Shown here: piece by piece, positions 4,062-43,142 of the stretch
Layout: every line of letters begins with the position of its first letter
Position numbering within the stretch: position 1 is the stretch's first letter
Source: a virus
Length of the DNA: 46,794 nucleotides
IMG/VR virus record: IMGVR_UViG_3300038441_000992
Span: 1 to 46,794 of that record
Direction: 5' to 3' (one strand)
Notes under the pieces: generated by a model
Told to the model about the DNA's origin: nothing
The model's database searches: none
Seen by the model: only the letters and a program-made list of their open reading frames with translations
Translations under genes and position numbers: made by a program

Positions 4062-4143
4062 GCCCTACCAGACTCCAAAGTTGTTCATAGGTATAACGCT
4101 TAATCGGGACAGATTCACGTCATACTAAGGTCTCTGGTAGGGC
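4062..4143 (+). promoter_or_regulatory. long-stem intergenic RNA element (plus-strand member)
   Basis: GCCCTACCAGA (4062-4072) pairs perfectly with TCTGGTAGGGC (4133-4143), closing a 60-nt loop. It begins 6 nt after the stop of the 204-aa gene and ends 26 nt before the ATG at 4170. Three minus-strand gaps hold elements of the same layout with unrelated stem sequences. There is no T-tract, so it does not look like a simple terminator. It may be an RNase III-type processing site or a 5' stabilising structure for the lysis cassette. Confidence 0.75.
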
Positions 4144-4169
4144 CTATTCCTCACAATAGACGCTAACCC

Positions 4170-4286
4170 ATGAAACTCATCGCTGCATGCTTCACCCTTC
4201 TCGTAACTACCTGTGCAGTAACCCTGCCTGAAGGTACACAGGTCGGAATCGTAACCTCGCACGGCACGATCACGGTCACCAAGTAA
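4170..4286 (+). CDS. 38-aa exported peptide, possible lipoprotein or lysis accessory
   Basis: This short frame begins MKLIAACFTLLVTTCAVTLP, a plausible signal sequence with a hydrophobic core and a Cys at residue 15 preceded by LVTT. That is close to, but not, a canonical lipobox (Thr instead of Gly/Ala/Ser at -1). The remainder is a short polar tail. It starts 26 nt after the structured RNA element and ends 19 nt before the cell-wall hydrolase candidate, so it probably belongs to a lysis cassette, perhaps as an outer-membrane lipoprotein of the o-spanin type. It is far shorter than most spanins. The leader ACAATAGACGCTAAC resembles that of the capsid gene. Confidence 0.5.
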   Translation: MKLIAACFTLLVTTCAVTLPEGTQVGIVTSHGTITVTK

Positions 4287-4305
4287 TTCCACTATCCAAC
4301 CGGCC

Positions 4306-4947
4306 ATGTCAATCATCCCCGCTAACACACCACAAGCAGCCCTAGCAACCATTACAGCTGAGTTGTCCCACCGCGATTCGCTGTTCAAAGGAGGCTTGAA
4401 AGCATGGCCGGTTGTCATTCTCGGATGGCGAGGTTACTTCCTCGACACCATGGGACGTAAGGGTAAGAACGACCGCGGGATCTACGACGACGCGATCTTC
4501 ATCATCAGCCCTACCTGCTTCCGTGCATTCAACGCCAACGTCGACCCTTCCCTCTTCCGTGACAAAGTTGCCTCACTCATCCCGGAACAAGTCGTCTACT
4601 ACAAAAAAGGCATGCACCGGGCTGGCACTCCTGGTGGTCACATGGCTTGGCGACAATCCTCCCCCGTCATCGTCCAACGTGATGAATTCATCAAACCCAA
4701 AGGTGTCAATGACTCCGCTTGGGGAATCTCACTCGGCAACGGTCAATGGACCGACAAGAACTGGCCGGGTGGCATCTTCGCAATCAACCTTCACAAAGGC
4801 GGAACCAACACCACCTCCTCCCTCGGATGTCAAACCATCCCGCCCAAACAATGGGCAGCTTTCTTCGAAACCCTCACTGAAGAACAGGATCGACACAACT
4901 CTCCAATTGTCCCCTATCTTCTGATCCACGACCCACGCATGGCATGA
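4306..4947 (+). CDS. putative endolysin, L,D-transpeptidase-like cell-wall enzyme
   Basis: The 213-residue protein carries a catalytic-looking motif near its C-terminus: His163 in NLHKGG and Cys175 in SSLGCQTIPPKQW. This is similar in form to the His...Ser-x-Gly-Cys signature of YkuD-type L,D-transpeptidases. Upstream, IYDDAIFIISP and FNANVDPSLF are blocks I associate with phage cell-wall-acting proteins of this type. No signal peptide is visible, so export would need a holin. It lies between a small exported peptide and a one-TM coiled-coil protein, fitting a lysis cassette. The spacing between His and Cys is shorter than in classical YkuD proteins, so peptidase rather than transpeptidase activity is possible. 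Confidence 0.5.
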   Translation: MSIIPANTPQAALATITAELSHRDSLFKGGLKAWPVVILGWRGYFLDTMGRKGKNDRGIYDDAIFIISPTCFRAFNANVDPSLFRDKVASLIPEQVVYYKKGMHRAGTPGGHMAWRQSSPVIVQRDEFIKPKGVNDSAWGISLGNGQWTDKNWPGGIFAINLHKGGTNTTSSLGCQTIPPKQWAAFFETLTEEQDRHNSPIVPYLLIHDPRMA

Positions 4948-5423
4948 TCACCCCTCTTATTGCCCAAGTCATCGAAGCCGTTCCAACCGTCCCAATTCAC
5001 GCATCCCCAAGTGAATCCAACCACCTCCTCTGGGGCGCTGTAATAACCTCCTCCTTTGCCCTACTCACCACCATCGTTTCAGTCATCCGCGACGCTGTCA
5101 AACGCCATCAAGATCGAGCCGACGCAGAACTGAAACGTGTCCAAGATAGAGCAGACAGGGCACTGGAACTCGAGCAGCTCCAACGATCAGGAAGGGAACG
5201 TGAGAGAAATATTCTAACTGAAGTCCGTGAAGTGAAGTCCGAAGCTAAGAAAGCTTTCGACACCGCCAATGGACACAATGAGAAAATCGCCAAGATGGGT
5301 GAGAACATCACCAAAGCGATTGAAACTCCTTCGAAAGTCATCGTAGTCAATCCCCCTGACCAACCTGTCCATACCACAAAATCTTTAGAAGTTCCAAACG
5401 GTTCTCCGGGTGAAGGTGCATAA
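4944..5423 (+). CDS. one-TM coiled-coil protein, putative holin or i-spanin
   Basis: The start overlaps the preceding stop as ATGA, indicating coupled translation with the cell-wall enzyme. A single hydrophobic segment spans about residues 28-48 (WGAVITSSFALLTTIVSVI). A long charged helix follows (about 50-115, for example RHQDRADAELKRVQDRADRA) with coiled-coil spacing, then a flexible Pro-rich tail. One N-terminal TM plus a periplasmic coiled coil is the layout of inner-membrane spanins; a small holin is the alternative. Which applies depends on topology, which cannot be read here. Confidence 0.55.
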   Translation: MITPLIAQVIEAVPTVPIHASPSESNHLLWGAVITSSFALLTTIVSVIRDAVKRHQDRADAELKRVQDRADRALELEQLQRSGRERERNILTEVREVKSEAKKAFDTANGHNEKIAKMGENITKAIETPSKVIVVNPPDQPVHTTKSLEVPNGSPGEGA

Positions 5424-5457
5424 ACGGCGGAGGATGAACTGGAACCCGGAGAACTAA

Positions 5458-7059
5458 ATGAACGAGCTTAACACATTCGAGCTGGCGCGACATGCTGAAG
5501 AGCTGGCTAAGTTGAAAGAAGAGAACGGAATCCTCTTCTACCAACCTCATCCCAAACAAGATCGCTTTCACCGTAAAGGCGCAAAACTCAGACGTTATGT
5601 TCGCACCGGTAATCGGTTTGGGAAGTCAACTATGGGCGCAGCAGAGGATGTGGCCTGGGCACTGGGTTATCGCCCTTGGTATCCTGAAGGTGATCCGGCG
5701 AGGTATGAAGGCATTCCGAAGAGGTCGGTAAAGATTCTCGTCATCGCGCAGGACTGGGATAAGGTGAATGAAATCTTCACCAACATGGAACCCGGTGCGA
5801 ACCAAGGAAAGATTTTCAAACTCCTCCCCAAGGACAAAATCATCGGCACTCCGGCTAAGTCCAAGAACGGAGTTGTCTGTCTCATCAAAGTCAAATCCAT
5901 CTGGGGAGGGACTTCCGCCATCTACTTCGATACTGTCAAGTCCTACATGGCTAACCCCATGGGACAGGAGTCTTCTGACTGGGACGCAATCCACATTGAC
6001 GAACCCTGCCCTCAGGAGATGTGGAATGCTAACTCTCGTGGCCTAGTCGACCGTGAAGGTTCTGCATGGTTCACCTGCACTCCCCTCAGTCAGATGTGGA
6101 TCAACGACATGTTCGTCCCTCGCTCGCGCATGCGTGAAAACCTCGGTGAGAAGGAAATTGACAACGGGGAGTATTGGATGATCACCGGTGAGATGGCAGA
6201 TAACCCTACCCTCACTCCCAAAGCCATTGAGATGTTCCTCGGTCAGCTTAGTCCTAACGAACGTCAATGCCGTGAGAAAGGTCTTCCTCTTTCACTTTCC
6301 GGACTCATCTACAAACAATTCGACTACACAAGTCACGTCTACGACACTACCCCGAGAGGATGGAAACAAATGTGGGTACCCCCACCTAATTACACCATCC
6401 GCATGGCAATTGACCCGCATCCGGAAACTCCTCATGCTGTCCTGTGTGCGGCGACTTCGCCTACTCAAGAAGTCTTCTTCTTTGCTGAAATATTCGAGCA
6501 AGTGATGGCATCCATCCTAGCCGAAAAAATCCAAGACATCCTATATGCCCACGACTCCGAGCAAGACTACTACGAACTCGCCGAAGCGTGGATGGATCCC
6601 GCTGGTTTCATTGAGTCGCCTACCGATGGATCATCCATGGCTACTGAATTTGACAAGCATGGAATCTACTGCAACCGAGCTGTCCGCGATCTCTCTCGGG
6701 GGATTATCGTGGCTCAGCAAGGCCTTGGACGAATGCTCACCCTCCCATCAGGAACCAAAACCCCATGGCTGAAATTCGGTCAACACCTCCAACGCACTCT
6801 CTGGGAATTCGATCACTACGAGTGGGACCCTAAAAAGGAGAACAAACCAATCGACAAAGACGACCACATGATGGAGAATTTCTACCGTCTGTGCGTCCAT
6901 GGTCTCCACTACATCCCTCCCGATAAAACCGGCCAGAACAAACTCGTAGTTGTCAAGAAGGACTACTCCCGCATGAGCATTCCCAGAACCTCTGGCCCTA
7001 TGCCACTCAAAGCTTCCCCACGCCGCTACTTCTCTCCATCCCAATTCCGCCGTAGATAA
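5458..7059 (+). CDS. terL: terminase large subunit
   Basis: This is the packaging motor ATPase and nuclease that translocates DNA into the prohead through the portal. Walker A is GNRFGKST at residues 51-58 and Walker B is DAIHIDEP with Asp181/Glu182. The C-terminal RNase H-like nuclease starts at MAIDPH (Asp319), with further acidic residues in AEAWMDPAGF and DDHMMENF. The length (533 aa) is normal for the family. It has one of the few clear ribosome sites here (GGAG about 8 nt before ATG). The portal gene follows after 2 nt. It is separated from the putative small subunit by the fibre and lysis genes. Confidence 0.95.
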   Translation: MNELNTFELARHAEELAKLKEENGILFYQPHPKQDRFHRKGAKLRRYVRTGNRFGKSTMGAAEDVAWALGYRPWYPEGDPARYEGIPKRSVKILVIAQDWDKVNEIFTNMEPGANQGKIFKLLPKDKIIGTPAKSKNGVVCLIKVKSIWGGTSAIYFDTVKSYMANPMGQESSDWDAIHIDEPCPQEMWNANSRGLVDREGSAWFTCTPLSQMWINDMFVPRSRMRENLGEKEIDNGEYWMITGEMADNPTLTPKAIEMFLGQLSPNERQCREKGLPLSLSGLIYKQFDYTSHVYDTTPRGWKQMWVPPPNYTIRMAIDPHPETPHAVLCAATSPTQEVFFFAEIFEQVMASILAEKIQDILYAHDSEQDYYELAEAWMDPAGFIESPTDGSSMATEFDKHGIYCNRAVRDLSRGIIVAQQGLGRMLTLPSGTKTPWLKFGQHLQRTLWEFDHYEWDPKKENKPIDKDDHMMENFYRLCVHGLHYIPPDKTGQNKLVVVKKDYSRMSIPRTSGPMPLKASPRRYFSPSQFRRR

Positions 7060-7061
7060 TC

Positions 7062-8948
7062 ATGGACCTTCGAATGTACAACGAGCTGGTAAATCCCAGC
7101 ATGACGCAGTTCCACTCTGACCTCCTGCGGTTAGCTCGGAACTACATCGACTTGGGCTGTGCTGCCATCCACGAATACTACAGCCGATGGGATGCATCCC
7201 TCGCCGCGTATGAAGCGGAAGATCCAGTGCGTGTCAAAGACGAAGACGCGATGGAAAACCAGCGTCCTGAGTCCATGGCTATCCCCATGACCTACGCACA
7301 AGTCCAAACCTTCAAGGCCTTCTGCAGTCAAGTCATGGACCAGAAACCTCGTCAATTCGAAGCTGCACCGCGTGGACCAGAAGATGCCGACGGACAGGAA
7401 CTGGGTGAAGTCCTTCTCCAATCCGACCTCACCGCCAACAAATGGAAAGTCAAGCGCGGTCAAGTCCTCCAAAACCTCGGCACACTCGGTCTCGCTGTCG
7501 TCCGATCCGAATTCGAAGAAGACGTTATCGGCGTCCAAATGGAAGTCGAAGACACCTCTGGCACCATCGCATTCGGCCAGAACTTCGGCGCTCGACACAA
7601 GATCCAGCACCAAAAAGTCACACGCCGCCGTGGCAATCGTATCTCCGTAGTCTCCCCCTACAAATACCTCCACGACCCATGCTTCGATATCTGCGAGCAA
7701 GATCGTGCAAGGTTCCAAGGTGACGAGTTCGAAATCACACGCTCCGAACTCGAAGCCATGGAATACCGCCAAGAGGTCGCTGGCGTCCACTTCATTCCAA
7801 AAGACTTCCCCTCCGACCGATGGACCAAGCGGATGCAATACAAAACCCGTTTCGACTACTATCGCTACAACGATAACCGAAACGACGTCCTATGCATCAC
7901 TCGCCTCCAGATGAAAGTCGTTCCACGGAACATCATCCTCTCCGATGGTGCTTCCCTCGGTGACTCCGATGCACCATGCATCCTCGACGTCTGGGTAGCC
8001 AACGACGCACGCATCATCAAATGTGAAATCAACGGCTGCCTCCACGGACGCTACTCCTACGACGTCGCAGCCTTCGACAACGAGATGCACGTCACTCTCG
8101 GCAAGTCCTTAACCGACATGATGTCGCGTTTACAGGAAACAATTGACTGGTTCATGAACACGCGGATGGAATCCGTCACGCGCAACATCGAGCCACAACT
8201 CATCTTCGATCCTTATGCAGTGGATGTGGGAGACTTGCAATCTGGCCAGAGACTCATTCGATTGAAGAAAGGTCTAGGTCGTGTGGGACTGGATGCTTAT
8301 GTAAAACAGTTGCAAGTCTCCGATCCAACTGTGCGTCACATGGATGACATTGCACAACTCACCCGCCTACTGCAGGAGGTGACCGGTGTCAATGCCAACA
8401 TGTCCGGACAATTCCACACAGGTCGTCGTTCTGCCACAGAAGCTAAAGTCGTCACTGGCGGTGCTGCTTCCCGAATCATGACCGTGTTGGGTGAAGTCTG
8501 GGAATCACTATTCTCCCCTCTCGGTTCCAAACTCCTCTCCAATCTCCGTCAAGGCCTCACTGTCGAGGACATCACCGCGCAAGCTGGCGAACGCACGCCT
8601 GAAGCCATCGCATCCTTCTCCGCTGATCCTATCCGCATTGCGACTTCCCAAGACTTCTGGATCCTTGACGGCACCACCCCATCAGAGAAAGGTTTTCAAG
8701 CTCAATGGATCACCGAAGTCTTCGGCGTGGTAATGACAAACCCACTCGCTGCGATTCAACTCGACGTCTCCCCACGTCTCCTCCTCGAAAAGGGTATGGA
8801 ACTCCAAGGGATTAACTTCCGTGACTCCATCCGGATGTCGAAAGATCCTCAAACCCTCCAACAAGTCGTCATGCAAATGGCGCAGCAGCTCGCACAGCAA
8901 ATGGTTGCTTCTCAACCACCTGCCCCCTCTGAACCTCCGCCACAATGA
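7062..8948 (+). CDS. portal protein
   Basis: A 628-residue portal-type protein directly after the large terminase. Features typical of podovirus portals are the helical N-terminus, the block SPYKYLHDPCF in the wing region (about 205-215), a stretch EVTGVNANMSGQFHTGRR (about 440-460) and a Gln-rich C-terminal tail (QQVVMQMAQQLAQQMV). It would form the dodecameric DNA gateway at the capsid vertex and the assembly nucleus for scaffold and capsid. Its stop overlaps the next ATG by 4 nt. Its position between terminase and scaffold supports the call strongly. Confidence 0.85.
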   Translation: MDLRMYNELVNPSMTQFHSDLLRLARNYIDLGCAAIHEYYSRWDASLAAYEAEDPVRVKDEDAMENQRPESMAIPMTYAQVQTFKAFCSQVMDQKPRQFEAAPRGPEDADGQELGEVLLQSDLTANKWKVKRGQVLQNLGTLGLAVVRSEFEEDVIGVQMEVEDTSGTIAFGQNFGARHKIQHQKVTRRRGNRISVVSPYKYLHDPCFDICEQDRARFQGDEFEITRSELEAMEYRQEVAGVHFIPKDFPSDRWTKRMQYKTRFDYYRYNDNRNDVLCITRLQMKVVPRNIILSDGASLGDSDAPCILDVWVANDARIIKCEINGCLHGRYSYDVAAFDNEMHVTLGKSLTDMMSRLQETIDWFMNTRMESVTRNIEPQLIFDPYAVDVGDLQSGQRLIRLKKGLGRVGLDAYVKQLQVSDPTVRHMDDIAQLTRLLQEVTGVNANMSGQFHTGRRSATEAKVVTGGAASRIMTVLGEVWESLFSPLGSKLLSNLRQGLTVEDITAQAGERTPEAIASFSADPIRIATSQDFWILDGTTPSEKGFQAQWITEVFGVVMTNPLAAIQLDVSPRLLLEKGMELQGINFRDSIRMSKDPQTLQQVVMQMAQQLAQQMVASQPPAPSEPPPQ

Positions 8949-10197: not shown

Positions 10198-10232
10198 GTC
10201 AGGGATTCGACAAACAATAGACACCAACTAAC

Positions 10233-14081: not shown

Positions 14082-15095
14082 ATGCTTAACAAAATCGAAG
14101 TGCCGAATTTCTTAGGGATTCGTGGATTGACGTTAGGAGTGCAGCCAACACTTCGGCAACCTCCCCGACTCCTTTCCACCTCCCGCTCTAATGCTGGGAT
14201 TGATTCTGCGGTTTACACCCAGATCACACCACGGGTAAGACCAATCCCTGGGAGTGTAGGTGCATCCATGCCACTGGAAGTGGTTGGAGTGTTGGATGGA
14301 ACTACATGGAAGGTGAGAGTAAACCCTGGGTTTGTCTTCTTCTCTGCTCCGGGAACTGACCATGCACCGATCCGTGAATACTTCGAGATTACCGGCACCG
14401 GTGACACGCTCTATGCAGTTTCCGATGGTGATCGTGTATATGCCCACGTCACTACCAACGCACGAGGTAAGCCACTCACCTATGTAATCGAGATCGCTGA
14501 CAGTGGTGTTGAGAACGTTCACTACGTTCCTGACACTCCAGACGAAGATGGATCTGGTGGAGATTACTTCTACGAACTAGCTCGTATCTCAATCAGCGGA
14601 TCTGTAATGACGATTGTCCCAGTGCATGTTGGTGCAATCGAAATCCAGAACCAACTCTGGGCGAGTGAGAGTGAAGGTGAAGGCGTTGGTATCATTGAGA
14701 AGTTCAACGAAGACACTGGCAAATACGCTCTCCGTGGAATCAAGCCCAAGGAGGAATCTCCGATGAATGTCGAGGTCTCCCCTGACGGTAAATCCATTGA
14801 CGTTTCAGGGAATGGATATGATACCACTGTCACCGACTCCAAGAAATTCAGCATCACCATCAAAGATGGGCTTGTCGAATCAGCTACCGATTCAGGTGCA
14901 CCCGGCGTCTCTGCCATTCTAATTCTCCGCTACACTGCTCAGCATGACAACGAAACTACAATTGACATTGGTTGGAAGCTACACTTCAATGAAGGTGTTC
15001 TAGAAGAAGCCTACTCCACCGCAAACGGTGGTGGCGACTGGTTCGCTATCGAAGGCACCGACACAATCCAGATCTCAGTTTCCACTTTCACGTAA
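14082..15095 (+). CDS. hypothetical beta-rich fibre or tail protein, 337 aa
   Basis: The protein begins with a basic/Pro-rich stretch and continues with beta-type sequence (VRVNPGFVFFSAPG, LARISISGSVMTIVPVHVG). It ends in a Gly-rich segment with GGGDWFAIEGTDTIQISVS. It resembles phage fibre or receptor-binding accessory proteins in composition only. It lies between a putative nozzle protein and two small helical virion proteins, starting 1 nt after the previous stop. Confidence 0.55.
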   Translation: MLNKIEVPNFLGIRGLTLGVQPTLRQPPRLLSTSRSNAGIDSAVYTQITPRVRPIPGSVGASMPLEVVGVLDGTTWKVRVNPGFVFFSAPGTDHAPIREYFEITGTGDTLYAVSDGDRVYAHVTTNARGKPLTYVIEIADSGVENVHYVPDTPDEDGSGGDYFYELARISISGSVMTIVPVHVGAIEIQNQLWASESEGEGVGIIEKFNEDTGKYALRGIKPKEESPMNVEVSPDGKSIDVSGNGYDTTVTDSKKFSITIKDGLVESATDSGAPGVSAILILRYTAQHDNETTIDIGWKLHFNEGVLEEAYSTANGGGDWFAIEGTDTIQISVSTFT

Positions 15096-15097
15096 TA

Positions 15098-15685
15098 ATG
15101 AACACACTTAGCAACCTAGCGGAACTCTCCGCACTCACTCAAGGATCCAATCCACTGGAACAACTCGCAGGGATCATGCAGTTGTTAGGTGGTCTTCAAG
15201 GACTCAACATGGGACAAGCCGAGAACGCTCGTGCCGATCGCAGGTTGAGTATGGACGAATCCAATCAAACCTTCCAACGCGATCTTGCATCACGTGCTGA
15301 TCTGCGTGCAGATCGTGGCGAAGCACGTGCAGATCGTCAACTAACCCTCGCTCAACTGGGTCAGGAAGACGAACGTGCATTCCGTCAAGGCACTCTGCGT
15401 AACCAAGAACGCGGACTCATGGCAGAGGGACGACGTAACGACCTCATGGAAAACAACATCGCGCGCCAAGCGGATCAAGGACAATCCATGACGCTCCTCG
15501 GTATGCTTGAGCAACTCTCACGTATGCCTGGAGCTTCTCCCACCCTCATGCAAGGAATCTTCGACACTACCCTGAACCATCTCGGTATCGAACTTCCCAC
15601 ACCTCCACCCAATCCCCAATCCGATTACATCAATCGTAACATTCCAGGATTCTCCGCCGGTCAACCAACACCACTAGGATACTAA
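15098..15685 (+). CDS. helical virion protein with RADR-type repeats, 195 aa
   Basis: The protein is mostly helical and charged. Residues about 45-90 carry several RAD(R/L) units (RADRRLS, RADLRADRGEARADRQL) encoded by related DNA repeats near 15229-15341, giving coiled-coil-like spacing. The C-terminus is Pro-rich. It sits immediately before the giant ejection protein, where podoviruses keep internal core proteins, so it may be an internal virion protein ejected with DNA. No family is identified. Confidence 0.6.
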   Translation: MNTLSNLAELSALTQGSNPLEQLAGIMQLLGGLQGLNMGQAENARADRRLSMDESNQTFQRDLASRADLRADRGEARADRQLTLAQLGQEDERAFRQGTLRNQERGLMAEGRRNDLMENNIARQADQGQSMTLLGMLEQLSRMPGASPTLMQGIFDTTLNHLGIELPTPPPNPQSDYINRNIPGFSAGQPTPLGY

Positions 15686-25620: not shown

Positions 25621-28047
25621 TCAAATAGTCCCGACGGGCGTTCCGTAGTTTGCATCGCAGTCTCCCCATGATGGTCCGTAGGCTCCTTCGTAGGGGATGG
25701 TGATGGACTGTCCGGCAATGATGAGCGGATTATCCATGTACGACCGCAACTTTTGCACAGCCCACTCAGTCTCCGTGATGGGAAACTGTCCGTTAAGCGC
25801 GTCATGGACTTGGTGAAGAGGCTCAATGATGAGTCGTCCATCTGACCTACGATTTTCTGGATCGTTCCACAATTTTTGCATTCCGAGGTTAGTAGCGTAA
25901 GTAGTATTTGACTGTGGCTCATGTGCGTATGCAGCTTGAATGGTTTTGATATCATTAGGCTTGCCGAAGAATCTACGGAATGCGCCCGAGGCACTGTGCA
26001 ATCCTCCCTTCGACATCAACTGTTGTTTGATCCAACTTTGCCATGCGGCTACACCCGGATACCTCAAGGAGTAAAGTCGCTGGAGGCGTTTACAATCCGC
26101 CTCAGGAACGATGATAGTCTGGCCCAAGTATTTATAACCATCTTGGAGAATCTGCCCAGACATGGTGCGTGCACCAAGGCCGTAGTTAGTTCCGTGTTGA
26201 ACTCTCTTACACGCAAAGTAAAGCCATTCCGTGTCACCATTTCCAATCTCGCGACCCTTGGATTTAATATCCTCTCGTGACCACGTGTTGACCATTTCAC
26301 CATCCTTCGACATAAGGGCGATGATCTTCGCTGGCTTAAGTCCGAAGAGATAATCATCGAGCATTGTTCGATCCCCAAGTCGAGCGCAATGAGCTGCCAC
26401 TGTCCAGCCATCCGCACCTGCAAGGTCGATCTGGAAGTAGTGGTGTCCCTCATCAGCACGATAGAGGCCACGTAGTTTCTTGGTAATGACTTGAATGTTG
26501 GTTCCAGTCCCATGTGAAGCGGTATAGCATGAAACTCGTCCCGTATCCGTACCAACAACATTATACCCACAGCGAACTCTTCCGTCAGGATCGTGGGAAA
26601 TCGAAGAGTATACCCGGACTTTGTCGACCTTCCGGTATGAAAGGATGTCAACGAGGATACGATCTTGATGGGACTTTTGGAGGTTGAGAATTGCAGAGAC
26701 ATTGGTGGTAAGTCCGCCTTTCTTGGACTGGGTATCCTTGGCATATTGTTTTGGGAACTTAAGTTCGTCGTAGAACAGCTTGCATAGTTGTTTGGGTGAA
26801 TTGATGTTGACAGGATGACCGGCAATAGCGTTGATACGATCATTGATCATCTTCAACTGGGTGTGGCATTTACCGGCGATGAGTTTGGCACCATCAGAAT
26901 CATATTTGGTGCCACGCAGTTGCATGTACATCATGACCTTGAGCAGGTCCATGTTCATGCGGAAGTGGGAAAGTGAGGATGGGTTGGCGTTGAGAACTTG
27001 GCGATGCTTCTCAGCAATTTCGTAGGTAACTACGGAGTCACGACAGCAATAGCGTAGGTGAGTCTGCCAATCATCCTTGGTGCGATCGTCCTTGTAGTAT
27101 GGATGACCAGTCCAGATGGAAGTTTGAGTTGCTAGGTTCTTTGGTAGCTCAGGGTAGATTTCCCATCCAGAAAGCATGGTGTCCCATTCGACATTGGCGA
27201 TGAACGCACCGTAGATCCATGATAATGCGTGATTGTCGAAGAGAGAGTTCTGGAGGATTTTTTCTACGTTAGGATCACGGAGAGTGAGATTCAATTCCTG
27301 CATCAGTTGAACTTCGTTTTCCAGTGGAGTTCCTTTGATCTCCATGGAGAAAGCGTAGTCTTTTGATGTAGCGAAGGAGAGACAGGTTATGAAGTTCTTG
27401 GAGATGTCACCTTCGATGTCAAGCGATACGCGCATGCCAGCACGTCGAATCTCACGCAGTCGTTCGATTTGTTCGGACAGAGTGAGGTGAATATCGAGTG
27501 TAGGGTTGGGGAGATTGAGTTCAGGAAACTCACCTTCCTTGCGAGCTTTAGCGAGGTCAAGTCGAATGAGCGGGAGGTAGGAATGTTGTCGAAGTGCGGC
27601 AGCTGGATGGATGGTAGCGATACACTTACGTCCATAAAGAGGTGAGTCGAGTTGCTCACATCTGAATATTGTTCCACGATAAGTGGTAACTTTGTGTCCC
27701 GAAACTCCTGCGAGAGCCAGTGCATGGTCTCCGCAGAGGACAACGATATTAGGGTTGAACTCGTTGATATCGGCGGAAAGGTGTGCAAGAGACTCAGTGC
27801 GTTCAGAGCCTTGAGGCGGGAATGCATTGAAGTTGTTGTTAGGTGGACGGTATTGACATACGTTGGCTAGGAGAGTGGCATCAGGATGAATGTCCGAATT
27901 GGACATGAGATTCCTGAGAACATGACCAGAGGGACCAATGAATGGTTCGAGGTATTGTTCTTCATCACCTCCGGGCGCTTCACCGATGACTGCGATACGA
28001 TAGTTCGCAGAGGTGAGAGTGGGTTTACGATTGGGAACGCGTGGCAT
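25621..28047 (-). CDS. fused uracil-DNA glycosylase-like, 3'-5' exonuclease and family A DNA polymerase
   Basis: ATG 28047 (808 aa) is chosen because it follows the upstream stop by 7 nt with a CTACCATG context; an upstream start would overlap that gene. Residues about 10-185 resemble family 4 UDG: GEAPGGDEE, PFIGPSG, CQYRPPNN and IHPAAALR, without the usual iron-sulphur Cys pattern. A DEDD exonuclease follows (VSLDIEGD, SLFDNHAL, YCCRDSVVTYE). The polymerase has an unusual motif A (DLAGADGWTVA), motif B around KRVQHGTNYG, and motif C QVHDAL. It is the replicative polymerase. The UDG-like domain may sense or remove uracil, or be structural. Confidence 0.9.
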   Translation of the reverse strand: MPRVPNRKPTLTSANYRIAVIGEAPGGDEEQYLEPFIGPSGHVLRNLMSNSDIHPDATLLANVCQYRPPNNNFNAFPPQGSERTESLAHLSADINEFNPNIVVLCGDHALALAGVSGHKVTTYRGTIFRCEQLDSPLYGRKCIATIHPAAALRQHSYLPLIRLDLAKARKEGEFPELNLPNPTLDIHLTLSEQIERLREIRRAGMRVSLDIEGDISKNFITCLSFATSKDYAFSMEIKGTPLENEVQLMQELNLTLRDPNVEKILQNSLFDNHALSWIYGAFIANVEWDTMLSGWEIYPELPKNLATQTSIWTGHPYYKDDRTKDDWQTHLRYCCRDSVVTYEIAEKHRQVLNANPSSLSHFRMNMDLLKVMMYMQLRGTKYDSDGAKLIAGKCHTQLKMINDRINAIAGHPVNINSPKQLCKLFYDELKFPKQYAKDTQSKKGGLTTNVSAILNLQKSHQDRILVDILSYRKVDKVRVYSSISHDPDGRVRCGYNVVGTDTGRVSCYTASHGTGTNIQVITKKLRGLYRADEGHHYFQIDLAGADGWTVAAHCARLGDRTMLDDYLFGLKPAKIIALMSKDGEMVNTWSREDIKSKGREIGNGDTEWLYFACKRVQHGTNYGLGARTMSGQILQDGYKYLGQTIIVPEADCKRLQRLYSLRYPGVAAWQSWIKQQLMSKGGLHSASGAFRRFFGKPNDIKTIQAAYAHEPQSNTTYATNLGMQKLWNDPENRRSDGRLIIEPLHQVHDALNGQFPITETEWAVQKLRSYMDNPLIIAGQSITIPYEGAYGPSWGDCDANYGTPVGTI

Positions 28048-28054
28048 GGTAGTG

Positions 28055-28264
28055 TTAGATCCAACCAAGTTTTTTCATTAACCATTCAGGGATGTTAGCT
28101 GTGCCCTTCTTGGTTTTGATGTTGAATGGTGAGAGGTTGACCTTAGACTTCGGCAACCATTCCGGTCCACCTAGCTCAGCATCGTCGGGTTGGAGTAGGA
28201 ATGCAAGTCCAGTTTCTCCTATGAGCGTAACAGGGATTTTGTAGATTTCGTCGGAGTCGGACAT
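28055..28264 (-). CDS. hypothetical protein, 69 aa
   Basis: The frame is open farther upstream, but ATG 28264 lies one nucleotide after the stop of the exonuclease gene and gives a sensible acidic-to-basic protein (MSDSDEIYKIPVTLIGETG ... WLMKKLGWI). It sits between exonuclease and polymerase, suggesting a replication accessory role. No family is recognised. Confidence 0.65.
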   Translation of the reverse strand: MSDSDEIYKIPVTLIGETGLAFLLQPDDAELGGPEWLPKSKVNLSPFNIKTKKGTANIPEWLMKKLGWI

Positions 28265-29027: not shown

Positions 29028-30548
29028 TTAGCTGATCTTTACATCCTTCCCTGCCATTTCTTTGATAAGATCCGACAGGATGTTAATACCTTTGTTATAA
29101 TGGTTCTGGTCGATCTCTACTGCACGAGGAACTCGTCCCAAGTTAATGGCTGCTCTCGGGCACGACATCTGACCCGCGTAGAAATCCCCGATCGTGTCTC
29201 CCACTCGACTAACAGCAGTGATGAGATGCGACCAAACTTCGTAGGGTTTGGAGAAAGGATTACTGTACATCTTTCGATCAATCGACCCGTCTGCGGCGAT
29301 TCCAGATAACGAACCCTTCGTCTCCAGAGTGGCGGTTCCTTTGCGTGCCACAATAGCGAATTCGGTGTTGTTAGTAAAGTTGGTGCCAGGTGAATTGTTC
29401 TTGCATTGGTGAGTCTTGAGCCAAGTAAACGGATGGTTTTGGAGTTTGAATCCATTTTGCTTGGCGAGTTGGCGATGCAGTTCCCAATGTTCCAAATCAA
29501 TCCAGACAATGCAGTAGGAACGCGGTTTGAGTATGCGCGCGAATTGCGCCCACATTCCAGGGAACATGGTAAGGTTCTCGGATTTCACATGGGTGTTCGC
29601 GACCTCAGACATGTTGACAAGATGATCATTGTCAATGTCAATCCCATAAGGAGGATCGGTGATAATGTGATCGATGGATTCTGCATCGATCGTGGCCATG
29701 ACTTCCATGCTGTCACCGCGTGAGCACCAGCTTGAAAGTGGGAAGTCGGTGAGACCATTGAAGAACAAGGAATTGCCGGTAGGCGTTGCAAGGGAAACCG
29801 CACCGTCGGGTGTTGTTGAAACGCTGGACCCAGAACCGAAAACCGCATCCATGTCGTCATCGTTTGTGACGATGGAAATGCCGGATTGTTTGGGAGCAGG
29901 GGTAGAGATGTTAATTGGACGGCTTGTAGCTCCGGCGGTGTTTTGAAGTTGATGACGTGCCAGAATCTCGTCACCTTCCTGTTCTTTACGTCTAAGAAGG
30001 ACGTTATATGCAGAGGTGATGGATTCGCACGCATAGATTTCTTTGTCGTCGTTGATGAGTGCTTCGGCTACGAGGAGAGCGTGAGCTACGTGGGCAGCGG
30101 ATTTTTTGAACAGCTTGCCGGTTTCTTTTGCACCCCAGGTTTCGGAACGTGCGCGGGATTCGGCTTTGTAGATGTTGTGGGATTTGTAGATGAGTTTGCA
30201 GACTTCCTGCCATGTGAAGTCCTCGCGTTCCATGTTCTCCGCGATTTCGAGTTCGATGCGATGGCCTTCGAAGTCGACGTCCTTGCGGATGATGCAGGGG
30301 ATCTTGGCGGCACCGAGAGATTGCATGGCAAGCATGCGGCGTTCGCCTCCGATGAGACGGTGGGTGTAGGTGCCGACTGGTGGGTCGAGGAGTTGGAGGA
30401 CGGGAGGGTTGAGTAGGCCGAGGGTTTTGATGGACTCGGCAAGTTCAGGAATGCCGGGGTAGTTGTCACGTCCACGGTTGCCACGGTCAATGGAGTCGAA
30501 GTCGATGTAGTTGCAACCGGCGGGGTGTTTGAAGGGTAGGCGTGCCAT
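29028..30548 (-). CDS. ParB-domain and DNA methyltransferase fusion
   Basis: The 506-residue protein joins a ParB/sulfiredoxin-like N-terminal domain (about 1-170; GGERR at 67-71 and AENMEREDFTWQEV) through a Ser/Thr/Pro-rich linker to a DNA methyltransferase. The latter has motif IV DPPYG beginning at Asp298 and, near the C-terminus, an AdoMet-like block IGDFYAGQMSCPRAAI. The order DPPY before the AdoMet motif fits a beta/N4-type amino-methyltransferase. ParB domains bind DNA and can hydrolyse CTP, so the fusion may target methylation. There is no partner restriction enzyme, so anti-restriction protection is the likely role. Confidence 0.85.
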   Translation of the reverse strand: MARLPFKHPAGCNYIDFDSIDRGNRGRDNYPGIPELAESIKTLGLLNPPVLQLLDPPVGTYTHRLIGGERRMLAMQSLGAAKIPCIIRKDVDFEGHRIELEIAENMEREDFTWQEVCKLIYKSHNIYKAESRARSETWGAKETGKLFKKSAAHVAHALLVAEALINDDKEIYACESITSAYNVLLRRKEQEGDEILARHQLQNTAGATSRPINISTPAPKQSGISIVTNDDDMDAVFGSGSSVSTTPDGAVSLATPTGNSLFFNGLTDFPLSSWCSRGDSMEVMATIDAESIDHIITDPPYGIDIDNDHLVNMSEVANTHVKSENLTMFPGMWAQFARILKPRSYCIVWIDLEHWELHRQLAKQNGFKLQNHPFTWLKTHQCKNNSPGTNFTNNTEFAIVARKGTATLETKGSLSGIAADGSIDRKMYSNPFSKPYEVWSHLITAVSRVGDTIGDFYAGQMSCPRAAINLGRVPRAVEIDQNHYNKGINILSDLIKEMAGKDVKIS

Positions 30549-33059: not shown

Positions 33060-33137
33060 TGAATCAGCAGGAGTGCCTAACTTATTGTAGGGTATCAAAG
33101 GCCTCCCTGTCTTACGACTTATCCTCCTGCTGATTCA
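33060..33137 (-). promoter_or_regulatory. long-stem intergenic RNA element before sak4
   Basis: TGAATCAGCAGGAG (33060-33073) pairs perfectly with CTCCTGCTGATTCA (33124-33137), a 14-bp stem around a 50-nt loop, with the inner end 19 nt before the ATG at 33040. Its layout matches the elements at 4062, 36228 and 43058. It lies just beyond the tRNA, so transcript processing here is plausible. There is no T-tract on the minus strand. Confidence 0.75.
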
Positions 33138-33163
33138 AAATTTTTACACGTTTTCGCGGTGAG
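33136..33163. repeat. direct repeat copy B, remnant gene end
   Basis: This 28-nt copy matches 33352-33379 at 25 of 28 bases. Read on the minus strand it spells codons for His-Arg-Glu-Asn-Val-stop, exactly as the end of the 70-aa gene does in copy A. All three differences are third-position, synonymous changes. The repeats enclose 188 nt carrying the tRNA. Confidence 0.85.
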
Positions 33164-33170: not shown

Positions 33171-33246
33171 TGGTACGCCCGGTTGGATTCGAACCAACGA
33201 CACTGGCTTATTTGGGCCATCACTCTACCACTGAGTTACGGGGCGC
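33171..33246 (-). tRNA. atypical tRNA with encoded CCA, isotype unclear
   Basis: The 76-nt RNA has a normal D arm (ACTC-AGTGGTA-GAGT), a normal T arm (GTTGG-TTCGAAT-CCAAC) and an encoded CCA. The acceptor stem pairs fully only if one extra C is bulged. The anticodon stem pairs as TGGC/GCCA only with an 8-nt loop, CCAAATAA, which has C instead of U at position 33. A 7-nt loop cannot be drawn with a paired stem. It could be a decayed tRNA, a quadruplet-decoding type, or a tRNA-like RNA. Adjacent sequence 33247-33351 holds small hairpins only. Confidence 0.65.
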
Positions 33247-33351: not shown

Positions 33352-33379
33352 CAAAATTTTTACACGTTCTCTCGATGAG
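33352..33379. repeat. direct repeat copy A, end of the 70-aa gene
   Basis: This copy covers the last five codons and stop of the 70-aa gene and the following AAATTTTG. Copy B lies at 33136-33163. Deleting the material between the copies would place this stop directly against the stem-loop at 33060-33137, as seen at the other long-stem elements. Confidence 0.85.
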
Positions 33380-33572
33380 CTTCGGAGTCAATTCTAGCTG
33401 CGTAGTGTGCAGTAGCTGCACCCTGGCAGTCGATAGGTTCCCATTTGGACTTCGACTTCAACCAGATCAACAGGATCTCGCCTTGTTCAGTGAAGTGTTT
33501 CTTCTTCAATGGACCAGTGCCGAGGTAGGTGAAACCTGCGGGAGGTGGAGCGATGTTGAGAGGAAGTTTCAC
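33360..33572 (-). CDS. hypothetical protein, 70 aa
   Basis: A small protein with a Pro-rich start (MKLPLNIAPPPAGFTYLG) and a basic middle (LLIWLKSKSKWEPIDC). It starts by ATGA overlap with the 112-aa gene upstream. Its 3' end is the source of the direct repeat flanking the tRNA. I recognise no definite family. Confidence 0.65.
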   Translation of the reverse strand: MKLPLNIAPPPAGFTYLGTGPLKKKHFTEQGEILLIWLKSKSKWEPIDCQGAATAHYAARIDSEAHRENV

Positions 33573-36227: not shown

Positions 36228-36296
36228 TGTCAGGACTGGAGAGCGATACGTGGTTAATTTCCCAAGACTAACTACCCAAGCTTTCCAGTCCTGACA
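36228..36296 (-). promoter_or_regulatory. long-stem intergenic RNA element before the 172-aa gene
   Basis: A 17-bp stem (one mismatch in minus-strand RNA) with GTCAGGACTGG in its 5' arm closes a 35-nt loop, 17 nt before the ATG at 36210. It starts 6 nt beyond the terminator stem at 36303-36336, leaving no room for a promoter between them. Same architecture as the elements at 4062, 33060 and 43058. Confidence 0.75.
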
Positions 36297-36302
36297 GAAA
36301 CC

Positions 36303-36336
36303 CACGGGAGTGGGAAATGAAGGAACCACTCCCGTG
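36303..36336 (-). terminator. intrinsic terminator after the 205-aa gene
   Basis: CACGGGAGTGG (36303-36313) pairs perfectly with CCACTCCCGTG (36326-36336), an 11-bp GC-rich stem with a 12-nt loop, 12 nt beyond the stop at 36349. On the minus strand it is followed by GGTTTCTG, a weak T-tract, so termination may be partial, allowing read-through into the next element. Confidence 0.7.
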
Positions 36337-36348
36337 AGTCAATGAGGA

Positions 36349-36966
36349 TTACAGGAGATCTTCCTGTGCCAAGAAGAATTCCTTCACCTTCGTGGCGAGG
36401 ATCTCCAGATCGTAGGTGCCGTCCTCCTTCGTGACGTAAGCACCGGTGATACCCTTCTCGGCAAACTTCGCAGCGGAAGCTTCGATCGTGGAATCACCGC
36501 GAGCGATCTTGTCGAGGAGTGCCTGTGCACGATCAAGCCATTCCTTCTGGGGTTTGGCTTTGCGTGGGGTCGAAGACAGATCGTAGCCGACGAGATCGAA
36601 GCAGGACTGGACGAATGGTCCGAGTTCTGACGAGCGCTCGGTGGCTGCGAGGTGGGCCTTCAGTGCCGGCAGGTAGTCCTTGATGTCCTGAAGAACTTCG
36701 ACCGGAGCGGCTTCCGGGTTGCGCTTCGATTGCTTCGTGCCGATGACGGGACGAGTGAAACCGAAGTGAGCCGGAGCAAGTTCCATGAACTTCGCCCATG
36801 CCTTTGGCATGACGGAACGGTAAAGGGACTCGTCGATAGCGTGGACGTAGGCTTGGCCTGCACCTGCCGCCTTGTCGAAATCTTCAAGGGTGGCGGGGAC
36901 AGTGATACGGACCTTGAAGCCACGGGTATCTTGAGTGCGAACGGCGGTATTGTAGTCGTTAGACAT
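36349..36966 (-). CDS. hypothetical protein, 205 aa, strongly promoted unit
   Basis: A soluble helical protein with blocks FKVRITVPATLEDFDKA, DRAQALLDKIARGD and an acidic end (AQEDLL). It has its own promoter (37049-37086), an A/C-rich unstructured leader (CAAAACAAGACAATG) and a terminator directly after, so it is probably abundant, single-gene and early. It faintly resembles the 175-aa protein at 139-666, which has a similar stand-alone arrangement. No known family. Confidence 0.75.
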   Translation of the reverse strand: MSNDYNTAVRTQDTRGFKVRITVPATLEDFDKAAGAGQAYVHAIDESLYRSVMPKAWAKFMELAPAHFGFTRPVIGTKQSKRNPEAAPVEVLQDIKDYLPALKAHLAATERSSELGPFVQSCFDLVGYDLSSTPRKAKPQKEWLDRAQALLDKIARGDSTIEASAAKFAEKGITGAYVTKEDGTYDLEILATKVKEFFLAQEDLL

Positions 36967-37086: not shown

Positions 37087-37106
37087 GATTTATTTTGAAA
37101 TACCTT
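37078..37106. repeat. inverted repeat at promoter P2 upstream box
   Basis: AAGGTATTT (37078-37086) and AAATACCTT (37098-37106) form a perfect 9-bp inverted repeat with an 11-nt gap, located between the RecD-like stop and the -35 of P2. It may be an operator, an activator site, or a weak terminator for the helicase gene; no T-tract follows. Confidence 0.6.
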
Positions 37107-37121
37107 TGTGCGAATTATCTA

Positions 37122-38757: not shown

Positions 38758-38969
38758 TTAGAGCGAGGAGTGTAGATGAAGAGTCCGTTGATGATTAGAT
38801 TGTGAACAACGGATGCGTTCATGTTGTAGATCCATGAGGCAGGGACTGGACGGAAGTTCTGTCCTTGCCATGGGAAGGGACGGTAGTTTGCACAGCGGAG
38901 GGACTTGCGTAAGTCCACAGCATTCTTCAATGCGTGGAGGTCTTTGATTTTAGTTGGTTGAGTTGGCAT
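38754..38969 (-). CDS. hypothetical protein, 71 aa
   Basis: ATG 38969 (MPTQPTKIKDLHALKNAV) is preferred to one 48 nt upstream because it shortens the overlap with the 252-aa gene to 43 nt and gives a clean helical start. The protein contains NYRPFPWQGQNFRPVP and a basic end. No family is recognised. Confidence 0.55.
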   Translation of the reverse strand: MPTQPTKIKDLHALKNAVDLRKSLRCANYRPFPWQGQNFRPVPASWIYNMNASVVHNLIINGLFIYTPRSK

Positions 38970-40143: not shown

Positions 40144-40149
40144 GGTGGG

Positions 40150-40476
40150 TTAGGGTTTGAAGGTTTCTCCACAGCAAATGCACTTGCCGTTGTAGTTGTA
40201 GATGGTGTCGCCTCTGTGGAGGATACGACAGACTCCATCGGGTGCAGTGTTGCGACGTTTGAGTTCGTCAAGGACGGATCGGCAGTGGTCAAGCATGCGT
40301 GCTGTTGAACGGATGGAGCCAATGGTGACAGAGCTGGCAGGTGAGTGCACGCCGTCGTTGTCAACTGCCGGTGAGAGGACGGTTAGGGTGGTAGTGTTGT
40401 CGGCTACGGTGGAGCGGACAACTTCGAAACCAAGGTCGGTGACGATGGAGGTGTGGTAGCGTTCGATGGTGATCAT
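40150..40476 (-). CDS. hypothetical protein with terminal zinc-like motif, 108 aa
   Basis: The N-terminus is beta-rich (TTTLTVLSPAVDNDG) and a helix follows (ARMLDHCRSVLDELKRRN). The C-terminus is KCICCGETFKP, a knuckle-like Cys pair with another Cys in GVCRIL. The start context is CTACCATG. It lies 6 nt after the GHKL gene in the reading direction. No family is recognised. Confidence 0.6.
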   Translation of the reverse strand: MITIERYHTSIVTDLGFEVVRSTVADNTTTLTVLSPAVDNDGVHSPASSVTIGSIRSTARMLDHCRSVLDELKRRNTAPDGVCRILHRGDTIYNYNGKCICCGETFKP

Positions 40477-40482
40477 GGTAGT

Positions 40483-41700
40483 TCAAAGTAGAGTTTCAGT
40501 CTTTTCTGCGATGAGGTTGATGATGGTGCGCTGGAGGAAGTTCTGGTATGAACGAGTGCAGTCTTGGTAGTTGCCGTTACGGTGATTGGTTTCCTCGTAG
40601 ATGGTTTGGGCAAGTTCGTGCATGCCTTGAGCGATGCCGAAGTTGGTGATGTAGATAGTGTCGGGAGTTTTGGGGTCGAAGTAACCGTGGAGGGCTTCTT
40701 TGGTAGTGTGGACGAAGGTGATGTGAGGGATTTCGATATCGACCTTGGCGAACATGGTTCGGATGACTTCGAGCTTTTTTAGTTCGATAGCTGAGGGAGT
40801 GTAGTCCTTGTGAGATTCAACGAGATGCCCACGGTCTTTGAGTAGTTGCTTCAGCCCGTATGGAAGTCCGGTGGGTTCGGCACGAATGCGTTCCATTGCA
40901 CAGTCGAGGAACTCTTCGGAGACAGGGCAGGATGCGAAGACGAAAGCGTAGTTGAAGTCGCCTTCGTAGGTTCCTTTGTCCTGCCGATGGGAGAGGATTC
41001 GGGAGAGGAGGCTACGGTTCTTGAGCTGGACGACTGCACGTACAATCTCCGCTTCGTAGGAACTCGGCTCGAGGATGGTCCGGTCTTCGGTGAGTTGTAC
41101 GGAAGAGTGGACGTTGTAGGAGAAGGAGGTGGTGGTGTCCTTACCTACCCGGACGCCTTTGTAGAAGAGTCCGTCGCCGGTGCGTTCGTGGATATCGCAG
41201 AGCGGGGTGGTGGCGATGGGTGGAGTGGAGATGAAGTATTCGTGCTTGGTGCGATGGAGATCGAGGAACGGTTCGCCGATGACTTCGATACAGGTTCCGA
41301 TGGAGGAAGGTGTGAAGCTGAGTGGGACGATACGCTCGACGCCAGATTCGTCCTTGCAGTTGGAGGAGAGTTCACGATAGGCCATCCACAAGTCCCAGTT
41401 GAGTCCGTAGTCGAGAGTGAATGGGAGAGGGATGGTTTGGTTGGAGAGGGAGTCGTGCCATAGGATCATGGTGAAATCCTTCGCACGGAATTTGGATTGT
41501 TCGAGGGTGAAGGTATGGCAGACTCCGTTGGAATGGATGCGGATGGATAGATTGTTGCGGAGGATTACGGCGATGGCGTATTTGAGTCCGGTTCCGAACT
41601 GGCCAATGGCGGAGGAGGAGGATTTGACGGAGAGTCCCATGAGGGTGAAAGCACGGGAGTCAAGTGGCTCAGAGTTTTCGAAGATTAGTTTGGAGTTCAT
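40483..41700 (-). CDS. GHKL-type ATPase with degenerate zincin-like C-terminus
   Basis: The 405-residue protein has a GHKL (Hsp90/histidine-kinase/MutL) glycine box, IGQFGTGLKYAIAV (Gly33, Gly36, Gly38), preceded by an Asn/Asp-containing helix. Near the C-terminus, residues 361-365 read HELAQ followed by YEE and NHRNG with an Asp-x2-Arg; a single base change (CAA to CAC) would make a canonical HELAH zincin motif. The ATPase part could drive conformational change; the C-terminal part looks like an inactivated peptidase. It is the largest protein of the 38.2-46.5 kb early block and a good candidate host-takeover or anti-defence factor; the role is inferred. Confidence 0.65.
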   Translation of the reverse strand: MNSKLIFENSEPLDSRAFTLMGLSVKSSSSAIGQFGTGLKYAIAVILRNNLSIRIHSNGVCHTFTLEQSKFRAKDFTMILWHDSLSNQTIPLPFTLDYGLNWDLWMAYRELSSNCKDESGVERIVPLSFTPSSIGTCIEVIGEPFLDLHRTKHEYFISTPPIATTPLCDIHERTGDGLFYKGVRVGKDTTTSFSYNVHSSVQLTEDRTILEPSSYEAEIVRAVVQLKNRSLLSRILSHRQDKGTYEGDFNYAFVFASCPVSEEFLDCAMERIRAEPTGLPYGLKQLLKDRGHLVESHKDYTPSAIELKKLEVIRTMFAKVDIEIPHITFVHTTKEALHGYFDPKTPDTIYITNFGIAQGMHELAQTIYEETNHRNGNYQDCTRSYQNFLQRTIINLIAEKTETLL

Positions 41701-42035
41701 TGGTCGAAGTAGTTGAGGATGGTGGAGAGGGAAGGAGCGATACGGATATCGTAGCCTGCGTTGGCCGCAGTTTGGTAGGATTTACATGGGCAAGGCCATA
41801 CAAAACTCGGAGGTGCAGATGGTTCGGAGATGGAGATCCAACCATAGCGTTCGTAGCTTACACTTCCAACTCGTTGGAGGATGTAGATATCGTTGGTACG
41901 TGGGCAAACGGAGAAGATGCAACCATTACCAAGTTTCCATGTGGCGATGGCGTCGATGATGTTCATTGGCAATGGAGTGCGGGTATCACCAAGCTCGTCG
42001 ATGATTTCAGTGTGGATTGGAGGTAGTGGGTTCAT
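41697..42035 (-). CDS. hypothetical protein, 112 aa
   Basis: The start is ATG 42035 (context TTCTACCATG), removing a 40-residue low-complexity extension. The product is alpha/beta (MNPLPPIHTEIIDELGD, NGCIFSVCPRTNDIYILQ) with PCPCKSYQ near the end, a possible metal site. It overlaps the GHKL gene by ATGA, so they are co-translated. No family is recognised. Confidence 0.65.
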   Translation of the reverse strand: MNPLPPIHTEIIDELGDTRTPLPMNIIDAIATWKLGNGCIFSVCPRTNDIYILQRVGSVSYERYGWISISEPSAPPSFVWPCPCKSYQTAANAGYDIRIAPSLSTILNYFDQ

Positions 42036-42084
42036 GGTAGAATGAATTTGGTTAGCCGTTCGATTGAGGATGGGTATTGATGGC

Positions 42085-42291
42085 TCATAAGTCTTGATGT
42101 TGTTGGATGAGTTCGTTGATGAGGCTAGCTGCACGTAGTAGCGCATCGAGTTCAATAGTTTCAGTATCGAATTGGATGATTACACCACCTGTGCTAATGC
42201 AGGAGTTGATCGAACGAGTGAGGTCAGCTTTTGATTTGTTATAAATCCGTTGAGCTGTGCCATCATGACGGATACGGAGTGTTTTAATCAT
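42085..42291 (-). CDS. hypothetical protein, 68 aa
   Basis: ATG 42291 overlaps the end of the 90-aa gene by 8 nt. The protein (MIKTLRIRHDGTAQRIYNKS, then DTETIELDALLRAASLIN) has a basic half and an acidic helical half. Function unknown. The 49 nt to the next gene hold no further feature. Confidence 0.6.
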   Translation of the reverse strand: MIKTLRIRHDGTAQRIYNKSKADLTRSINSCISTGGVIIQFDTETIELDALLRAASLINELIQQHQDL

Positions 42292-42556
42292 GTTCAGATC
42301 CAAGGTTGAGGTAGCGAGATGGGATATGGCGACTGCGAGTGCGTCCGAATTGGACGAGATGGAATTGGTGGGTGACACCAAGTAAACGTTTCTCGTAGGA
42401 AATTTTGCCAGTGGATTCAGGATGGATTATGGAGTGGAAGAGTATTTCCCGTTTGTTACCATTCCGCCAGCTGGTGAATAGCATGGCTGGCTGAGGTGAA
42501 TAGTTTGTGATTTGGACAATCAGGAATGCGTTTGTGGTAGAATAACGGACTTTCAT
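42284..42556 (-). CDS. hypothetical protein, 90 aa
   Basis: A basic, beta-rich small protein (TTNAFLIVQITNYSPQP, then SWRNGNKREILFHSI). It starts 5 nt after the stop of the 159-aa gene and overlaps the next gene by 8 nt. No family is recognised. Confidence 0.6.
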   Translation of the reverse strand: MKVRYSTTNAFLIVQITNYSPQPAMLFTSWRNGNKREILFHSIIHPESTGKISYEKRLLGVTHQFHLVQFGRTRSRHIPSRYLNLGSEHD

Positions 42557-42561
42557 AGAGA

Positions 42562-43041
42562 TTAGAAGGGAATGTCGTCGAAGTCGAAATCGGTTCCGTC
42601 GAGGTCTTTGTAGAACCCGCGTGCAGCAGCTTTACGCATAGCTTCGCGGAAGTGCTTCATGATATCTTTGTTGGTATCGCTGTGCATTCCACGCATGGAA
42701 TCGAAAGGGTTTGGGTCAGGGATTTTAGTCTCATCCAATTTGGCTGCCCGTGGAGTGAATACAATATCAGGCACGTAGCGAACGATGGGCAGTTCGTCAG
42801 GGGCGGTGAGGGTGAAAGCGAGGGAGGGGGAGACTTGGGAGAGAGGGATGGTGATGGAGCAGCGAACGTTGGACTTCCCAGTATTTTGGTGGAGTTTGAG
42901 TTCCTTGTGAGGGATGGTGAGGCCGGTGAACATGAGGGTCATGGATTCGTTGGAGGGAGCATTGACCCGTTCACCGTAGGCGGTTAGGTAGAGGATGTTG
43001 TTGAGGAGGGAGACTTTGAAGGAGAGTTGGAGTGGGTGCAT
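42562..43041 (-). CDS. putative SSB-like protein with acidic DDIPF tip, 159 aa
   Basis: ATG 43041 (context CTTTCCTACCATG) is chosen over an upstream start that would run into the stem-loop. The body is beta-rich (MHPLQLSFKVSLLNNILYL, then NVRCSITIPLSQVSP) and the protein ends FDFDDIPF, the acidic tip by which bacterial SSBs recruit replication and repair partners. It could be the phage SSB or a mimic that captures host SSB partners. A structured element ends 16 nt before the start. Confidence 0.6.
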   Translation of the reverse strand: MHPLQLSFKVSLLNNILYLTAYGERVNAPSNESMTLMFTGLTIPHKELKLHQNTGKSNVRCSITIPLSQVSPSLAFTLTAPDELPIVRYVPDIVFTPRAAKLDETKIPDPNPFDSMRGMHSDTNKDIMKHFREAMRKAAARGFYKDLDGTDFDFDDIPF

Positions 43042-43057
43042 GGTAGGAAAGTGGATG

Positions 43058-43142
43058 ACCGGCAGGGAGTGGACGAGTAGCAGCTGTGCAAACCGAAACA
43101 TGTTTGTCCGATTTTTCGTTCACTTAGAAACTCCCTGCCGGT
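43058..43142 (-). promoter_or_regulatory. long-stem intergenic RNA element before the SSB-tipped gene
   Basis: ACCGGCAGGGAGT (43058-43070) pairs perfectly with ACTCCCTGCCGGT (43130-43142), a 13-bp stem around a 59-nt loop. It starts 6 nt after the stop of the 166-aa gene and ends 16 nt before the ATG at 43041. The loop contains the palindrome AAACATGTTT. It fills almost the whole gap and belongs with the elements at 4062, 33060 and 36228. Confidence 0.75.

Follow-up and report, generated by a model that had tools for sequence, protein, structure and literature searches.

Why should a phage place long stem-loops immediately upstream of a few of its start codons, when the arms of those stems are unrelated in sequence from one element to the next? 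The question is raised by the stretch of DNA studied here, referred to as the window, which comprises the 46.8 kb (46,794 nt) of IMG/VR virus record IMGVR_UViG_3300038441_000992. A preliminary description had reported four such stems on both strands and considered RNase III-type processing sites, 5' stabilisers or a translation device replacing Shine-Dalgarno (SD) initiation. Overall that reading is partly supported by the analysis presented below.

The window and its genes

The window derives from a tailed virus of a bacterium. Its plus strand carries a head, tail and lysis block (portal, TerL and endolysin-like genes), while replication and early genes occupy the minus strand (DNA polymerase A, ligase, RecD-like helicase, PD-(D/E)XK nuclease and a Sak4-like protein). 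An annotated phage collection held no near DNA match to the first 24 kb, and the Sak4-like and helicase proteins, used as single queries, retrieved zero relatives. A TerL search of prokaryote genomes returned one distant match, which gave no indication of the host. Inspection of the 30-nt leaders of 56 candidate starts found a clear SD absent in most; the leaders are C/A/T-rich, and CTAAC or CTACC often stands directly before the ATG.

Several minus-strand products were characterised in passing. Positions 25621-28068 form a predicted single frame combining a uracil-DNA-glycosylase-type domain with a family A DNA polymerase, and at 29028-30548 one 506-aa protein unites a ParB-like domain with a DNA methyltransferase. 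The 205-aa early protein encoded at 36349-36966 belongs to a fast-evolving family, which iterated profile search matched to 19 sequence pieces; the protein of the window has no match in Pfam or PHROG.

Position and architecture of the elements

Direct reading of the sequence confirmed the four stems, loops and distances of the preliminary description, together with the lack of T-tracts after the stems, and revealed a fifth, unreported element before TerL (Table 1). Element 1 starts 6 nt past the stop codon (4055) of a 204-aa gene and ends 26 nt before the ATG (4170) of a 38-aa lipoprotein-like ORF. Element 4 likewise starts 6 nt past a stop (43149), that of a 166-aa gene, and ends 16 nt before the ATG at 43041, in line with the preliminary description, which had two elements starting 6 nt past an upstream stop. 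Element 2 follows a tRNA-like gene at a distance of 37 nt and ends 19 nt before the ATG (33040) of the Sak4-like gene, while element 3 is found 17 nt before the ATG (36210) of a 172-aa gene. The fifth element leaves 2 nt to the ATG of TerL (5458), its 5' arm overlapping the end of the gene at 4944-5423. The distance to the start is therefore 16-19 nt in elements 2, 3 and 4 despite their different upstream neighbours (tRNA, terminator and stop codon, respectively). Element 1 and the pre-TerL element bracket the lysis genes, as do two elements in the relative G001. The stem arms are unrelated in sequence from one element to the next.

A terminator-like hairpin with a weak T-run precedes element 3 by a few nt; the tRNA-like gene ahead of element 2 scores 40 bits and is not called by ARAGORN.

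Table 1. Coordinates of the stem-loop elements and neighbouring features in the window, and of R1 loci in other phage records (prefix L).
Feature	Position	Strand	Description
Element 1	4062-4143	+	Arms 4062-4072/4133-4143; 11 bp, 60-nt loop; fold z -4.2
Fifth element (pre-TerL)	5400-5455	+	12 bp (one G-U), 32-nt loop; fold z -5.1
Element 2	33060-33137	-	Arms 33060-33073/33124-33137; 14 bp, 50-nt loop; fold z -5.0
Element 3	36228-36296	-	Perfect stem of 13 bp (17 positions if one mismatch is allowed), 35-nt loop; fold z -7.4
Element 4	43058-43142	-	Arms 43058-43070/43130-43142; 13 bp, 59-nt loop; fold z -4.3
Terminator-like hairpin	36300-36339	-	Separates element 3 from gene 36349-36966; weak T-run GGGTTTCTGTC
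tRNA-like gene	33175-33245	-	Rfam, 40.1 bits; not called by ARAGORN
Weaker stem-loop	33298-33355	-	9 bp, loop 40 nt; upstream of tRNA
Direct repeat, first copy	33352-33379	-	End of 70-aa gene (33360-33572), including TAA
Direct repeat, second copy	33136-33163	-	89% identical; abuts element 2
R1 locus	L118:13688-13799	+	
R1 locus	L155:12492-12595	-	
R1 locus	L117:14317-14421	-	
R1 locus	L142 ~7265-7450	+	
R1 locus	L145 ~495-660	-	
R1 locus	L152 ~15020-15180	-	
R1 locus	L317:1421-1561	+	
R1 locus	L325:6862-6987	-	
R1 locus	L345:5187-5297	+	
R1 locus	L310:5572-5709	-	
R1 locus	L300:8358-8481	-	

Excess over chance

Intergenic gaps of at least 40 nt were scanned for perfect stems of at least 11 bp enclosing 20-90 nt of loop. 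The window holds 4 such stems against 0.017 expected from 1000 dinucleotide shuffles, in which the maximum was 2, and RNA folding z-scores of the five elements run from -4.2 to -7.4. At the starts themselves, a stem of at least 11 bp is present at 5 of the 57 checked, the next best stem having 9 bp. On crude gene calls, comparable gap stems occur at 0.118 per kb in 80 other phage fragments, at 0.09 per kb across the relatives taken together, and at approximately 1-1.5 per kb in the window, which is thus some ten times richer than the other phage fragments. Since comparable stems occur in other phages, the class is not unique to this one; it is a minor feature found generally in phage spacers, and the present phage has many of them.

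No Rfam 15 family accounts for the elements: a scan at gathering thresholds recovered tRNA only, with no covariance-model match at any element, and a search around element 2 at E <= 5 left it unmatched. A loop motif common to all elements was not found, ATGGGTTTCG being seen by eye in both G001 loops only. Comparison of sense and antisense fold stability favoured the sense strand in all five pre-TerL elements (5/5) and was mixed for the others, such that stability overall does not pick the strand. A promoter inside the loop was considered and rejected, the scan count equalling that of shuffles with one chance-level match in the loop of element 2. Insulation of the start codon was likewise rejected, computed accessibility having given no consistent effect.

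The proposed substitute for SD initiation is not supported by these results: although most genes lack a strong SD, 52 of 57 starts have no stem of at least 11 bp, and no consistent opening of the start region by the elements was seen in silico.

A putative insertion upstream of element 2

The junction preceding element 2 contains two further features that the preliminary description had missed. The weaker stem-loop of Table 1 begins 4 nt past the stop of the gene at 33360-33572, and a 28-nt direct repeat (89% identical, 17 nt exact, 216-nt spacing) flanks both this stem-loop and the tRNA-like gene. The repeat carries the last codons and the TAA of the 70-aa gene, and element 2 starts 6 nt past the duplicated TAA. 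Because the direct repeat surrounds it, the tRNA looks inserted, and it is because the tRNA-like gene now precedes it that element 2 seemingly breaks the 6-nt rule seen at elements 1 and 4. From the sequence we infer that the tRNA and the weaker stem-loop entered the junction and that element 2 formerly obeyed this rule; the final stretch of the 70-aa gene looks to have been duplicated by the insertion.

By eye, the tRNA-like gene (33175-33245) has a short anticodon stem and a loop of seemingly 8 nt, in which U33, normally present, is not obvious. We also considered, and rejected, a noncoding RNA of 620 nt next to the tRNA: the stretch contains a plausible gene (33360-33572) with a GTGA overlap, and its folding is no different from that of shuffles.

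Recurrence in relatives

TerL searches yielded approximately 85 loci and many whole records. The closest relative, G001, has a TerL 71% identical to that of the window and carries hairpins at two orthologous junctions, one ahead of the lysis lipoprotein and the other ahead of TerL. At the former, between the 204-aa gene and the MKLI lipoprotein, a 17-bp perfect stem with a 31-nt loop starts 9 nt past the stop and leaves 8 nt to the ATG, its letters unrelated to those of element 1; the pre-TerL stem measures 13 bp (one G-U). A stem of at least 11 bp is present in 5 of 61 distinct TerL leaders, against 0.15 expected from shuffles, namely in the window, G001, G002, G015 and G045, with stems of 11-15 bp and loops of 30-42 nt. 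The genes upstream of these stem-bearing TerL genes are mostly non-homologous: one is common to the window and G001, while a 74-aa ORF occupies this place in G002, an endolysin in G015 and a tail-lysozyme-like gene in G045. As the pre-TerL stems recur while the upstream genes mostly differ, these particular elements appear to be tied to the downstream start. In G015, a 12-bp stem with a 12-nt loop was also seen by eye 15 nt before the endolysin ATG.

The family of the 205-aa gene, which precedes element 3, provides a second junction for comparison. Long stems lie downstream of it in G011, G021, G033 and G036, and ordinary T-tailed terminators follow it in G012, G020 and G049. The G011 counterpart of element 3 repeats the order of the window, with a terminator first, then the element, and 17 nt between it and the ATG. 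The stems of G033 and G036 stand near the upstream stop and far from a start. Homology of the 172-aa gene that follows element 3 to its G021 counterpart was not supported.

At any single junction the element is absent in most relatives. No relative close enough for base-by-base covariation was found, and IMG/VR yielded none within 80-95% of the window. Hairpins of the same shape, in some of the same places but with different letters, nevertheless occur in relatives, and the shape consequently looks selected. The orthologous junctions thereby support the earlier claim that structure and position are conserved while the stem letters are unrelated.

A separate covarying RNA candidate, R1

Examination of the relatives also uncovered a separate structured RNA candidate, modelled as R1, with an 18-bp outer stem around a strictly kept core composed of GCAGTGAGGGCAC and GTGAGCGACCTGRCC, between which lies a variable middle of ~35 to 110 nt. 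It is present in six relatives, and a pattern scan of IMG/VR added further phage loci among the matches listed. Across 12 sequences, and excluding the variable middle, 15 of 23 pairs are changed on both sides; 98.6% of cells pair in the same 12 sequences, compared with 28.6-47.5% when slid. Rfam scans of seven loci at E <= 1, six of them holding R1, left it unmatched, and a search of the window with the R1 model at E <= 10 found nothing. In G011 and G012, R1 is flanked by the PD-(D/E)XK nuclease and Sak4-like genes, whereas in others it follows the 205-aa early gene. One phage contig also carries a tmRNA gene (L317:2924-3287, plus strand), which lies downstream of R1 at a distance of 1.4 kb.

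Comparison with known systems and rival explanations

The closest likeness in arrangement is to the Extended Start Associated Sequences (ESAS) known from Cluster K mycobacteriophages (PMC3203893) and to inverted repeats that lie 14-22 bp ahead of start codons in Microbacterium phages of Cluster EG (PMC7302621). Both consist of inverted repeats in intergenic gaps, close upstream of the starts of a subset of phage genes. Their arms, however, share a consensus, whereas those described here are unrelated, and ESAS spacers are mostly 4-13 bp compared with loops of 30-60 nt; Cluster K sites additionally have a conserved 13-bp start sequence alongside (PMC3203893). Given that arm sequence is not shared, the elements do not belong with either system, despite the similar place and arrangement.

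In phage T7, RNase III sites of the early message are intercistronic stem-loops between a stop and the next start. If the elements were sites of this type, RNase III, a double-strand-specific nuclease, would cut the stems and separate the cistrons. The shared location speaks for this, as does the finding that in several relatives (G011, G015 and G045) an internal loop divides the outer from the inner stem. An RNA-seq survey of E. coli RNase III sites used a 22-nt double-stranded minimum (PMC5371410), and because the stems here, at 11-17 bp, fall below it, classical sites of this type are doubtful; the loops are moreover large and open, those of elements 1, 2 and 4 being weakly paired. Processing of the T7 type is hence considered unlikely. 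A somewhat better candidate, rather unlikely but a serious rival, is that the stems form the 3' end of the upstream message, as unusual terminators, as Rho-trimmed ends or as blocks to exonucleases, their proximity to starts following only from short spacers. Many stems start 1-12 nt past a stop codon, G033 and G036 have theirs near a stop and far from a start, some relatives have T-tailed terminators at the same junction after the 205-aa gene, and strong hairpins follow a tail-fibre-type gene in other phages. Intrinsic terminators similarly place a G+C-containing stem shortly after a stop codon, but the elements differ from them in their 32-60-nt loops, in having no T-tract and in the distance kept to the next start. 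A 3'-end role is further at odds with the separate terminator that precedes both element 3 and its G011 counterpart, with the tRNA ahead of element 2, and with the recurrence of pre-TerL stems behind differing upstream genes.

Still less probable is a translational bridge, by which the stem would loop out the spacer, allowing a terminating ribosome to reinitiate at the next start in a phage without SD leaders. Reinitiation requires very short spacers (PMC10666635), and the distances suit it, elements 1 and 4 having 6 nt between stop and 5' arm, as element 2 would have had prior to the inferred tRNA insertion, and the 3' arm standing 2-26 nt from the start. A terminator (element 3) and a tRNA (element 2) now intervene, however, and the stem is absent at most SD-less genes here. 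Elements acting at the DNA level, as cruciforms, invertible segments or insertion remnants, are very improbable. Perfect inverted repeats on either strand, with antisense folds as stable as sense for many, are compatible with them, but no promoter excess was found in the scanned regions and the segment orientation is identical in the near-identical contigs G015 and G016. The arms, being unrelated between sites, also offer no common binding site and no shared terminal inverted repeat of the MITE kind, and inspection of element 1 found no target duplication there.

Favoured explanation and implications

The explanation favoured here, at a probability of roughly 0.45, is that the elements are intercistronic hairpins that mark and protect cistron segments of polycistronic phage messages. 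Each occupies the junction of two genes: the 5' arm begins a few nt past the upstream stop, 30-60 nt are looped out, and the 3' arm ends near the next start, with a short leader in between; the folded stem would then be a cistron boundary. Acting as RNA, the stem may shield the 5' side of the downstream cistron against 5'-end-dependent decay, while decay or cleavage of the upstream cistron would halt at it. Segments of one transcript, such as the bracketed lysis genes, could consequently have lifetimes of their own. It is established that 5'-end hairpins slow RNase E and that 3'-end hairpins block exonucleases (discussed in PMC5371410). Like 5'-terminal stabilising stem-loops, the elements place a stem just outside the ribosome-binding region, where it could block 5'-dependent decay (PMC5371410); they differ in lying inside polycistronic regions and not at a mapped 5' end. 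The 5' stabiliser role of the preliminary description is plausible.

A broader and more doubtful proposal is that the elements represent a class of device defined by architecture only (stop, a few nt, stem of 11-17 bp, open loop of 30-60 nt, short leader, start), which would set separate lifetimes or translation of lysis and terminase modules in phages without SD leaders, the stem sequence turning over fully while structure and place persist. Homology searches seek conserved letters, and elements conserved only by place and pairing escape them; the rule of stop, short gap, long open-loop stem, short leader and start can instead be scanned for in any phage genome. If cistrons are indeed separated in this manner, lysis and packaging genes could be expressed differently without many promoters, in hosts whose leaders hold little SD information.
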